A stretch of 64,000 nucleotides of DNA, taken from contig JAEUMK010000005.1 of assembly GCA_016792565.1 (NCBI GenBank), positions 1-64,000 of the forward strand, given 5' to 3'. The notes under the pieces were generated by a model. That model searched no databases. It had not been told where the DNA came from and worked only from the letters and a program-made list of their open reading frames with translations. Below, piece after piece: positions 33,916 through 47,430 of this stretch. The stretch's first letter is position 1. Every line of letters starts with the position of its first letter. Source of the DNA: Alphaproteobacteria bacterium (GTDB lineage: Bacteria; Pseudomonadota; Alphaproteobacteria; Micropepsales; Micropepsaceae). Made by a program: the position numbers and the translations under genes.

Positions 33916-36900
33916 ATGCCGAAGCCTTTGCGCATCTTCATCTCATCGCCCGGCGACGTCTCCGCCGAGCGGCGGCGCTCGGCCCTGGTGGTGGAGAGCC
34001 TGAAGAAGGAATTCGCGCGCTTCTTCGACATCACGGCCTATCTGTGGGAGCACGAGGCGATGCTCGCCACGGGGCACTTCCAGGACGTCATCGAGCCGCC
34101 CAGCCAGAGCGACATCGTGGTGCTGATCCTGTGGTCGCGGCTGGGTACGCCGCTGCCGGTGAATTCGGGCAAGCGCGAGTATCGCGGCATCGACGGACGC
34201 GCGCCGGTGACCGGGACGGAATGGGAATACGAGGACGCGCTCGCCGCCAATCGCGCCAAGGGCGCGCCGGACCTGCTGGTCTACCGCTCGAACCGCGAGC
34301 CGCAGATCTCGCTGCGCGACCCGCAGAAGAAGGCGCTGGCGGAGAATCAGTGGTCGGCGCTGGAGAGCTTCTGGTCGCGCTACTTCCAGGCGGGCGGGGT
34401 GTTTCTCTCCGCCTATCACGGCTTCGACGATCTGGAAGATTTCGGCGACATGCTGGAGGCGCATCTGCGCCAGCTGATCCGCGCCCGGATCGAAAAGGAG
34501 CGCAGCCAGGGCGCGCATGCCGGGGCCGAGGTCAGGGCGACCTGGCTGCAGTCGCCGTTCCGGGGGCTGTCGACCTACGACTTCGAGCATGCCCCGATCT
34601 TCTTCGGACGCGGCGCGGCCCAGCTCAAGGCGGTCGAGCAGATCGTCCGCAACGCCAACGAGGGCAAGGCGTTCCTCCTGGTGCTGGGGGCATCGGGCTC
34701 GGGCAAGTCCTCGCTCGTGCGGGCAGGCCTCCTGCCCAACCTCTTCGCCCGCGGCGTCGCGGACGGGGCGGGGTTGTGGCGGCGGGCGATCCTCAAGCCG
34801 GGCGACGCGGACGGCAATCTGTTCCTCGGCCTCGCCCGGGCGCTGATCGAGGACCGGGTGAAGGACGGCGTCGGCCTGCCGGAAATCCTCGGCGCCGGCG
34901 TCACCGTCGAGCAGCTGGAGAACGCGCTGCGCCGTTCGATCGACGATCCTTCGTTCGTCTTCGCGCCGGCGCTGGCGCGCGTCACCGCCGAGGCGCGCGC
35001 CTCGGGCCGCATCATGGGCCACGAGAGCGCCAAGCTGGCGCTGGTGCTGGACCAGCTGGAGGAGATCTTCACCGACAGCGCGATCTCGACCGAGGAACGC
35101 AATTCCTTCATCCGGCTGATCGGTTCGCTGTCGAAGACCGGCGCGGTCTGGACGGTTGCGACGATGCGCTCGGACTTCTGGCACCGCGCCGCGGCGGCGC
35201 CCGAACTCGTGGCGCTGGCCGAGGGCACCGGGCGGATGGACCTGCTGCCGCCGAGCCAGGCGGAACTCGCCGAGATGATCCGGCGCCCGGCGGCGGCGGC
35301 CGGCCTGACCTTCGAGGACCATCCGGAGACCAAGATCGGCCTCGATGCGATCATCGCCGAGGAAGCGGCGCGCGATCCCGGCTCGCTGCCGCTGGTCTCG
35401 TTCGTGCTCGACGCGCTCTACAAGACGGACGTGGAGAAGGCCAGGGGATCGGTCCTCACCTACGACACCTACGAGGCGCTCGGCGGCATCAAGGGCGCGA
35501 TCGCCACCCGCGCCGACGAAATCCTCAATGCCCAGACCCCCGACATCCAGGCGGCGCTCGCCTCGGTGCTGCGCGCGCTGGTGACGGTCGATGCCGACAA
35601 CCGGCAGAACGCGACCGCGCGGATGGCGCCGCTGACCGCCTTTCCGGCGGGTTCGCCGCGCCGCGCGCTGGTCGATGCGTTTCTCGATCCGTCCGCGCGG
35701 TTGCTGATCGCCGACGGCGATGGCGGCGAGGCGCGGGTCCGGGTCGCGCACGAATCCCTGCTCAATCACTGGTCGAAGGCCCGCGATCAGATCAATCGCG
35801 ACCGCCGCGATCTGGAGACCCGCTCGCGCCTGGAGGAAGACGAGTTGCTGTGGCGCGCCGCGCCGCCGGCCGAGAAATCGGCCCGCCTGCTCGAAGGCCT
35901 GTCGCTGGAGGAAGGCAAGGACCTCGTCAAGAAGTGGGACGAGGAACTGCCGCAATCGCTGAAGGACTTCATCGCCGAGAGCGCCAAGGCCGCGAACGTC
36001 AAGCGCAACCGGCGCATGCGCATCCTTACCGCCGTCGCGGCGGTGATGGCGGTTTTGGCGGTCGGCGCCGGCATCCTTGGCTTCTTCGCGCAGCAGCAGA
36101 GCCGGATCGCCCAGGCCGAGAGCGCCCGCGCCCAGGCCGAGAGCGAGCGCGCCAAGTCGGCCGAGGCGCAGGCCGAGGCGCAATTGCGCGAGACCCAGCG
36201 CGGCAGCGCCCAGCTGGTCGCCCGCCAGTCCTACCTTGCCTCGAAGGGCGGCTTCTCGGAACTGGCGCTGGCGCTGGCGGTCGAGTCCGTGCGGATCGCC
36301 GAGCAGGCGGGCGGCGAACTGCCGCGGGCCTCGCTGGCGGCGCTGCAGCACGCCGCCTCGACCGATACCATCGTCTCGGTCCTGTCGGATTCGGGCGGGC
36401 CCCTGGGCGACATCGAATTCGGCGCCGACCCGTCGGTCATCTTCACCGGCGGCGACGGCAAGCTGACCGTCTGGAACACGTTCCTCGGCACAGAGCGCTC
36501 GATCTTCGGCTCCTACGAAGACCCCTTCCTCACCAGCGTCGCCGACCGCGGCGGTCATTTCCTTGTGAATCTCTACAAGGACAAGACCATGCAGTTCTTC
36601 GACGGCGCGACGTTCGAGCCGGTCGGGACGATGAAGACGTTCGACGCCATGCCGGTGGTCGCGGCGATCGATCGCGACGGCCGCACGGTGGTCGCGACGG
36701 ACGAGACCGGGGCGGTTCACTTCGTCGATGCGACGACGCAGGAGCCGCTCTATTCGCTTCAAGGCCATGACGGCCGCCCGGTGGCCGCCGCGGTCGCCGA
36801 CAACATCTCGATCGCCGTCACCGGCGACGATCGCGGCAAGGCGGTGATCTGGGACCTGGCGACGCGCGCCGAGCGGGCGACGATCTGGCACGGTTCGGCC

Positions 36901-45348: not shown

Positions 45349-47430
45349 CTAGTGCGGCGGCTTCTGCGCCTCGGCGAGCGCGCGGACCTGTTCGAAGCGG
45401 CGGGCCAGCGCCTCGACGTCGCCGGGGCGCTCCTCGGCCGGGGCCAGCATCTCGCGCACCAGCGTCAGGAAGCGCACCTCGGCCTCGGGCCGCTCCTCGC
45501 CGCCGCCGCCGCCGAACCAGCCCTTCTTCCTGGGCGCCGGATCGGGCACTGAATCGCGGCCCTTCTCGGGGCGGCTGCCCGAGAACCACTCCCACGCCAT
45601 GACGCCCAGCGGATAGATGTCGAGCTTGGGATCGGCGCTCTTGGTCGTCGCCTGCTCCGGCGGCGCATAGCCGCGCGTTCCCGCCCCGCCCTTGAAGTTC
45701 GGCAGCACGAGGCCGGCCACATGGGCGATGCCGAAATCGATCAGCACCGGCGCGCCGGCATCCGTGACGACGACGTTCTCGGGCTTGAGATCGCGGTGGA
45801 TGACGCCGCCCTTATGCAGCGCGGCGACGCCGTGGCAGATCAGCGCCATGTAGTGGGCGATGCGGTCGAGGCCCTTGACCGAGCCTTCCGAGACGATGGC
45901 GCGCAGCTGGCGGCCCGACACGAATTGCTGGACGATATAGGGGTTGGCCATCGCGTCGCGGCCGATGGCGTAGACCTGGGCGACGCCGGGATGGCGGGCC
46001 CGCGCGGCCGCCTCGATTTCGAGGCGCAGCGAATCGAGAAACGTGTCGCGGGTGGCCCGGTCGTAGACGGCATCGAGCTGGATCAGCTTCAGCGCCACAT
46101 CGCGTCCGCGCTGCAGGTCGAAGGCGCGATAGACGGTGCCGAACGAGCCCGCGCCCAGTTCCTCGCGCAGGAAATAGCCCGACAGCGCCTCGTCCGGCCG
46201 CCAGCCGACCGCGCGCCCTGATTCCTCCGAGACGCCTTCCTCGATGCCGTAGCGGGCCATCGCTTCCGACAGCGTGCGCAGATAGCGGGTGAGGCCGCGG
46301 GCGCGGCAGCGCTTGACCGCCAGCAGCAGCGCCGCCGAGGCGTCGCCCGTGCGGCCCTGCTCGCGGTAGAGATCGGCGGCGAGCAGGCGGGCCTGAATCT
46401 CGGTGTCGGGCAGGTCCATATAGGTCAGCTGGCCGAGCGCCCCTTCGGCCAGCTCCAGGGCGCGCCTGGGGTCTTCGGCGCGCAGCGCCTCGGCCTCGAT
46501 GAGATCGAGCAGCATGCGCTCGAACTCGGCGCCGCCCGGCGGCAGCAGGGCGCGGGCCTCGCCGACCGCCGTCATCGCCCCCTTGGTGTCGCCCGCCCCG
46601 GCCAGCGCGTCGGCGCGGTCCTTCAGGCAGAAGAAGGCGATGCCGGACAACCCGTTGGCGTTCGCCATGGCGAGGCCCTTGTCGAGCTCGGCGAGCGCCT
46701 CCTCGGTCTTGCCCTCGGCGGCGAGCACCCGCCCCAGATCGTTCAGCAGCTTCGCCTCGCCGCGCACGTCGCCGATCTGGCGGGCGAGGCGGATGTCGTT
46801 GTTGAAGTAGTGACGGGCGTCGCCGTAACGGCCCGCCTGGAAATTCAGGCGCCCGAGATTGCCGAGCGTGATGGCGACGCCGAAGAGATCGCCGAGCACC
46901 GTCTTGTCGGCGAGCGAGCGGGCATAGGCGCCCAGCGCCTGATCGACCTGGCCCAGCGTCGCATAGACGGTGCCGAGCGAGTCGCTGACCTGGGAGGTGC
47001 CGGCGACCAGGCCGAGCTTCTCGAAGCCGTCGCTGGCCTCCAGCAGGTCCTTGATGGCCGACTGCATGTCGACGCGCCGCATCGCAACGAGGGCGCGCAG
47101 ATGCAGCGCCCTGAGACGGGCGGCGGGTTCCGTGCCGCCCGTTTCGATCACCGGCTCGATCAGCGCCAGCGCCGCCTTTTCGCCGCCGACCCCGCGCATC
47201 TCGCACATCGCCAGCTCCAGCGCCGCCGCGACGCCCAGCCGCGCGTCGGCGAGCAGCGCCTGCAGATCGCCGCGGGCTTCGTTGAAGCGGCCAAGCTGGA
47301 CGAGCGCCGCGGCGCGGGCGAAGCGCTCGTCGTCGCTGGCCGGCTGGATGGCGGCCAGCTCGGCGAACTTCGCCGCGTGCAGCTTCTCCTCGGCCGGGCC
47401 GTCGATGAGATCGACCGTCTTGATCCACAT
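45349..47430 (-). CDS. TPR-serine/threonine protein kinase
   Basis: This 693-residue protein has about 400 residues of TPR helices followed by a eukaryotic-type protein kinase domain (about 418-690). The kinase motifs are complete: Gly-rich loop GAGSFG at 426-431, Lys448 in VALKLI, HRDLKPEN with catalytic Asp547, DFG with Asp565, and APPE in the activation segment. A Gly-rich insertion (KKGWFGGGGG) lies near the C-terminal lobe. There is no membrane helix, so it is cytoplasmic. A kinase beside two FHA proteins implies that it phosphorylates threonines which the FHA domains read. The TPR part is a likely regulatory or substrate-binding scaffold. It lies downstream of, and may be read with, the transglutaminase operon. 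Confidence 0.92.
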   Translation of the reverse strand: MWIKTVDLIDGPAEEKLHAAKFAELAAIQPASDDERFARAAALVQLGRFNEARGDLQALLADARLGVAAALELAMCEMRGVGGEKAALALIEPVIETGGTEPAARLRALHLRALVAMRRVDMQSAIKDLLEASDGFEKLGLVAGTSQVSDSLGTVYATLGQVDQALGAYARSLADKTVLGDLFGVAITLGNLGRLNFQAGRYGDARHYFNNDIRLARQIGDVRGEAKLLNDLGRVLAAEGKTEEALAELDKGLAMANANGLSGIAFFCLKDRADALAGAGDTKGAMTAVGEARALLPPGGAEFERMLLDLIEAEALRAEDPRRALELAEGALGQLTYMDLPDTEIQARLLAADLYREQGRTGDASAALLLAVKRCRARGLTRYLRTLSEAMARYGIEEGVSEESGRAVGWRPDEALSGYFLREELGAGSFGTVYRAFDLQRGRDVALKLIQLDAVYDRATRDTFLDSLRLEIEAAARARHPGVAQVYAIGRDAMANPYIVQQFVSGRQLRAIVSEGSVKGLDRIAHYMALICHGVAALHKGGVIHRDLKPENVVVTDAGAPVLIDFGIAHVAGLVLPNFKGGAGTRGYAPPEQATTKSADPKLDIYPLGVMAWEWFSGSRPEKGRDSVPDPAPRKKGWFGGGGGEERPEAEVRFLTLVREMLAPAEERPGDVEALARRFEQVRALAEAQKPPH

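Follow-up and report, generated by a model that had tools for sequence, protein, structure and literature searches.

The window, a stretch of 64,000 nucleotides from contig JAEUMK010000005.1 (C75) in the 3.07 Mb genome of an Alphaproteobacteria bacterium of the family Micropepsaceae, carries six neighbouring genes which an earlier note had taken for one signalling or conflict module. Among named organisms, Alphaproteobacteria bacterium SO-S41 (AP024629.1) is its closest relative. We computed gene association, domains, intactness of active sites, the SLOG fold and the predicted topology. All six genes were intact and close to where they had been placed before, and the catalytic motifs and most of the claimed domains were borne out by Pfam and motif reading, for the SLOG protein by the predicted fold. 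The first gene (33916..39339, + strand) encodes a protein of 1807 amino acids with a DUF4062 domain, an nSTAND1 nucleoside triphosphatase (NTPase), a transmembrane (TM) helix and WD40 repeats. It is followed on the - strand by the genes for a SLOG-fold protein, a putative nucleotide binder (39346..39960, 204 amino acids), and a TPR-S protein (39957..41171, 404 amino acids), two separate genes with an overlap of four nucleotides. Two paralogous proteases, FHA-TM-trypsin-like protease A (41375..43273, 632 amino acids) and FHA-like-TM-trypsin-like protease B (43413..45338, 641 amino acids), are encoded on the + strand, and a TPR-Ser/Thr protein kinase (45349..47430, - strand, 693 amino acids) closes the block. 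As the strands alternate, a single operon of six genes was rejected.

The kinase (Pkinase E=1e-35, TPR_12 E=7.7e-15) had intact VALK, HRDLKPEN and DFG motifs, and no credible TM helix was found in it. For protease A, the start was corrected from 41228 to 41375; the protein combines an FHA domain (22.4 bits vs a Pfam cut-off of 20.7, E=1.7e-4), a TM helix (amino acids 139-157, N-terminus inside) and a Trypsin_2 domain (E=2.4e-14). Protease B shares 43 % identity with A (Trypsin_2 E=5.7e-11) and gave no Pfam FHA match of its own. The earlier count of two FHA-proteases stands for A by Pfam and for B by full-length alignment with A, with the trypsin triad intact. The triad H250/D322/S412 was invariant in the alignment of 13 homologues. 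The FHA domains of relatives scored E=1e-7 to 3e-15 in Pfam; G29-R30 was invariant in 13 sequences and SRxH was present in both window copies. With the phosphate-contacting Arg and Ser, protease A has some of the sequence features of a phosphothreonine reader and may bind phosphothreonine. The number of protease copies in tandem varies: two in the window, four in genome G013, where the array (L063:3-7001) occupies the same site and points to a local protease expansion. In SO-S41 the locus holds two FHA-proteases plus one copy that consists of trypsin only, and a further two lie at other places in the genome. Topology was predicted from hydropathy and charge by the positive-inside rule. In most homologues checked the FHA domain is predicted to be cytosolic and the trypsin domain periplasmic, which supports the periplasmic side proposed for the protease in the earlier note.

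The nSTAND1 domain of the first protein (34555..35859, + strand, as are all domains of this gene) was recognised by Pfam with E=9e-82, and its Walker A (GASGSGKSS) and Walker B (LVLDQLEE) motifs are intact and legible in the sequence. In the nSTAND proteins the NTPase is followed by a TM helix of the same orientation as in the proteases, so that the part beyond it (WD40, TPR or lectin) is predicted to lie in the periplasm. In the window protein the helix lies at amino acids 703-721 (36022..36078); since its N side is rich in Lys and Arg, the NTPase, and with it the predicted NADase, would be cytosolic and the WD40 beta-propeller repeats (37129..38292, Pfam) periplasmic. The helix was kept in the nSTAND neighbours checked (L082, L084, L088, L101, L102, L110). 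The TIR-like DUF4062 domain (33931..34230) reached 18.0 bits in the window protein vs a Pfam cut-off of 24.7 (E=0.0034) and is thus sub-threshold there, while the relatives at L084, L088 and L110 exceed the cut-off. Its Glu104, within a GTxxE motif, was invariant in eight homologues. The predicted structure of this domain is of moderate confidence and the fold search with it only suggestive, and a sequence search of solved structures with DUF4062 and TPR-S yielded no useful match.

DUF4062 is a TIR-like NADase in Swarozyc of K. pneumoniae, where it is the antiphage effector, and in human TEP1 (PMC13174449). The window protein resembles TEP1 and NWD1 in its domain order DUF4062-STAND-WD40, and its putative, sub-threshold DUF4062 with the conserved Glu resembles that of Swarozyc (PMC13174449). 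It differs from Swarozyc and TEP1 by the TM helix and by the neighbouring kinase and protease genes, and its own NADase activity is a prediction. One alternative to a six-gene module is that the DUF4062-STAND protein alone acts as an abortive NADase of the Swarozyc/TEP1 kind and that kinase and proteases regulate it, for instance by clipping the WD40 part. The proven NADase and antiphage activity of DUF4062 (PMC13174449) and the predicted periplasmic position of both WD40 and protease fit this explanation. However, the C-terminal helix-turn-helix/winged portal-binding domain of Swarozyc is missing, the window protein ending in nSTAND1-TM-WD40 instead, and at L066, L068 and L069 the kinase/FHA-protease core has no DUF4062 in its vicinity and must have another job there. 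We regard this alternative as improbable.

The SLOG open reading frame gave only a weak, sub-threshold YAcAr match in Pfam (E=0.015). Its AlphaFold model (predicted local distance difference test score 91.4) had as nearest solved folds in Foldseek YpsA (2nx2, E=1.1e-7), DprA, ShosA, LOG and the SLOG domains of MCP and TRPM2; at the level of the model, the SLOG Rossmannoid fold is confirmed. The neighbouring protein had been labelled TPR/DUF4071. TPR-S is the better name: PF20308 matched with 60.2 bits vs a curated cut-off of 27.6 (E=3.1e-16), and the N-terminus showed a sub-threshold match to DUF4145. Burroughs and Aravind (J Bacteriol, 2020) reportedly predicted that TPR-S reads signals derived from nicotinamide adenine dinucleotide (NAD).

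The six-gene region was found at the same chromosomal site in all five genomes of the genus. In genomes G011-G014 the gene order from about 26 to 62 kb was largely kept, flanks included; because the flanking genes are equally syntenic, conservation within the genus proves nothing about a module and was rejected as evidence for one. Both this synteny of the flanks and the alternating strands would suit a coincidental neighbourhood of genes with independent functions. The informative test lies beyond the genus. A scan of GTDB contigs for which the only query was the FHA-protease alignment gave 58 loci, and 18 genomes, one of them representing the window's genus, were picked by the FHA-protease only. 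A Ser/Thr kinase gene adjoined the FHA-protease in 16 of the 18 vs 0.08 expected (p about 1e-36 if the genomes are independent; the association p-values are too small because this independence is assumed). Expected adjacency was derived from kinase counts and genome sizes, and adjacency was read by hand from the coordinates. All ten genomes with a full-length nSTAND1 gene had it within about 12 kb of the FHA-protease (0.11 expected), and a TPR-S domain was near it in eight of 15 (0.07 expected). In several of these genomes just one kinase gene was detectable, usually the neighbour of the FHA-protease. Recent common ancestry does not account for the pattern, since the homologous proteases are roughly 30-45 % identical to those of the window and their surroundings differ; recurrence in such divergent lineages makes a coincidental neighbourhood highly improbable, and we strongly disfavour it. 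The search for a conserved neighbourhood that the earlier note had called for thus found kinase, FHA-protease, nSTAND1 and TPR-S genes together in divergent Alphaproteobacteria far above chance. The pair of kinase and FHA-protease is also present in the cultured Rhizobium terricola and Bauldia litoralis.

Outside the genus the occurrence is patchy. Within the order, 14 of 96 genomes had a match at E<=1e-3, only nine of them a strong one. A class-wide search of 385 genomes gave 123 matches, mostly short active-site matches to other proteases, with strong matches only in G000, G030, G210 and G217. The proteases of G210, G217 and G320 are FHA-less and have no adjoining kinase with Pfam support. 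Next to the FHA-less trypsin relatives sampled evenly across the class (L190-L192), no kinase was found except for one weak match without Pfam support. An exception are the Lentisphaerae loci L114 and L116, whose shorter trypsins do have an adjoining kinase; at L114 the trypsin is without an FHA match, and a kinase-FGE protein lies beside it. FHA-TM-trypsin genes were also seen in Verrucomicrobia and in one Bacteroidetes record (L094, L099, L100, L111), with kinase matches near L094, L100 and L111; in the aligned FHA domains of these three, the GR motif lacks its phosphate-contacting Arg.

The stable core is the kinase and the FHA-protease, next to which the nSTAND, SLOG and TPR-S genes can be exchanged for others. 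Three genomes from other genera of the same family (L066, L068, L069) kept TPR-S, FHA-protease and TPR-kinase, with no nSTAND or SLOG gene nearby, so these two genes are not obligatory. Of the earlier proposal that all six genes act as one module, the association stands and the obligate six-gene unit does not. Functional equivalents repeatedly stand in for the input arm: TIR-nSTAND1-FGE with SLOG at L082, a TIR-DUF4062 protein with nSTAND1 at L088 and L110 (the latter also with a Crp-TPR-S protein), DUF4062-nSTAND1-TPR at L084 and, with a sub-threshold DUF4062, at L101, TPR-S-cyclase at L079 and L098, and a cluster of CHASE2-cyclase, cNMP-MscS and CHAT at L069. The L082 cluster (G008:C136) is dense: SLOG-like genes border it on either end, and it contains two genes for TIR-nSTAND1-FGE, an FHA-protease and two kinase domains. 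At L069 (9578-19998) the three-gene core lies near the genes for CHAT, the CHASE2-cyclase and a cyclic nucleotide (cNMP)-binding MscS channel, and homologues of these cyclase and channel genes also flank the core at L081; the cluster may serve as another exchangeable arm for sensing or effector functions.

In the papers searched, FHA, kinases and trypsin each occur only on their own, as sporadic effectors in STAND and vWA systems (PMC7159879, PMC8195603). With the nSTAND1/FGS and VMAP/iSTAND conflict systems the window locus shares nSTAND1, trypsin, TIR and the sporadic FHA and kinase effectors (PMC8195603, PMC7159879), but it differs in that FHA is fused to a TM-protease and this protease has as its partner a kinase with preserved active-site motifs. 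Neither MoxR, vWA, VMAP nor EAD was found by Pfam in the six proteins, which sets them apart from the ternary systems of MoxR ATPase, vWA and VMAP/iSTAND. There was also no SIR2 or canonical TIR match, unlike Thoeris (TIR ThsB with SIR2-SLOG ThsA or another ThsA effector), and the kinase scored 116 vs the NCBIfam equivalog cut-off of 460 bits for MAD6 of MADS. No NCBIfam system model fits the six proteins, and a known defence system was rejected with PADLOC, which gave generic kinase and protease matches only. The literature searched, which did not reach the most relevant works, held no description of the kinase and FHA-TM-trypsin pair. The nucleotide-centric TPR-S/SLOG/TIR conflict systems, reportedly described by Burroughs (NAR, 2015) and by Burroughs and Aravind (J Bacteriol, 2020), are similar in having TPR-S and SLOG beside a STAND gene and proteases and a predicted NAD-derived messenger. 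The output arm of kinase and FHA-membrane-protease is not known to be a defined system in the Burroughs works.

The six-gene circuit is probably real, because even in distant bacteria the kinase and protease genes remain neighbours. Chances seem about even that it is a membrane-spanning module for NAD- or nucleotide-triggered, kinase-relayed proteolysis, with the soluble TPR-kinase and one or more FHA-TM-trypsin proteases as fixed output arm and a nucleotide/NTPase input arm. The DUF4062-nSTAND1-TM-WD40 protein would detect the trigger, most simply via the periplasmic WD40 repeats, and oligomerise on nucleoside triphosphate, upon which the TIR-like DUF4062 would cleave NAD+. The SLOG/TPR-S pair would read the nucleotide product and gate the kinase, which would phosphorylate a Thr of some partner protein (possibly the STAND protein, the TPR-S protein or the kinase itself). 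Docking of the cytosolic FHA at the phosphothreonine would cluster or activate the periplasmic serine protease, and an envelope or WD40 substrate would be cleaved. A kinase that writes and an FHA domain that reads are consistent with the gene pairing. We infer the NADase activity and its messenger, the trigger and the substrate, as well as which way each step runs; the proposed step order draws on the DUF4062 NADase precedent (PMC13174449), the conserved Glu104, the predicted topology and the signal reading predicted for TPR-S.

Several observations weigh against this relay. The DUF4062 fold search ranked TIR folds at the top, yet weakly (E about 1e-3, template modelling score below 0.5). Residues for phosphothreonine binding are only partly kept in the FHA domains, the canonical Asn being missing in the window copies and Ser replaced by Gly or Ala in several relatives. 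Orphan FHA-proteases without kinase occur at L070-L072, L101 and L102 have no adjoining kinase, the three-gene relatives manage without nSTAND and SLOG, and with alternating strands the genes need not be co-regulated.

An immune role of the module is plausible by association. The fully specified form, an immune or stress circuit of an undescribed class in which a TEP1-like DUF4062-STAND NADase signals by an NAD-derived messenger to SLOG/TPR-S, the Ser/Thr kinase, FHA docking and the periplasmic protease, i.e., phospho-controlled proteolysis acting inside-out across the inner membrane, is tentative and on balance rather unlikely. A serious rival to defence is a housekeeping circuit for envelope stress or quality control in the role of DegS/DegP, in which WD40 and protease survey the periplasm and the kinase tunes them; we hold it possible, if doubtful. 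The locus is chromosomal, vertically inherited in the genus, outside any defence island, and its flanks, of similar divergence, consist of ordinary genes for metabolism and efflux (AcrB, amidoligase cluster) and not of defence genes. A mobile or prophage origin was rejected, as the FHA-protease had no match in phage or plasmid collections at E<=1e-5 and the matches in IMG/VR were short or weak and in the protease region; these results and the lack of a PADLOC system match favour housekeeping. The patchy occurrence outside the genus and the partners TIR, DUF4062, SLOG, CHAT, FGE lectin and TPR-S, typical of conflict systems, argue against it. Like HtrA/DegS, the window proteases are membrane-anchored trypsin-like serine proteases predicted to face the periplasm, but they are without PDZ (Pfam), carry a cytosolic FHA domain, are paired with a kinase and score far under the NCBIfam cut-offs.

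The relay of kinase-controlled proteolysis would bring three signalling currencies, NAD-derived nucleotides, Thr phosphorylation and regulated proteolysis, together within a single block of genes and would put a human TEP1-like architecture into a testable bacterial genetic context. In the kinase/FHA-protease pair it offers a concrete prediction, which cultured bacteria such as Rhizobium terricola and Bauldia litoralis would allow one to check.

Directly after the kinase gene begins, at 47624-54497, a cluster of transglutaminase, circularly permuted ATP-grasp/Alpha-E and transglutaminase-DUF2126 amidoligase genes. Of the four other genomes of the genus, three share this synteny; in the fourth, the contig stops at the kinase. 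Further downstream in the window (55688-57172), an Ada metal-binding/AraC domain is fused to an AlkA glycosylase.

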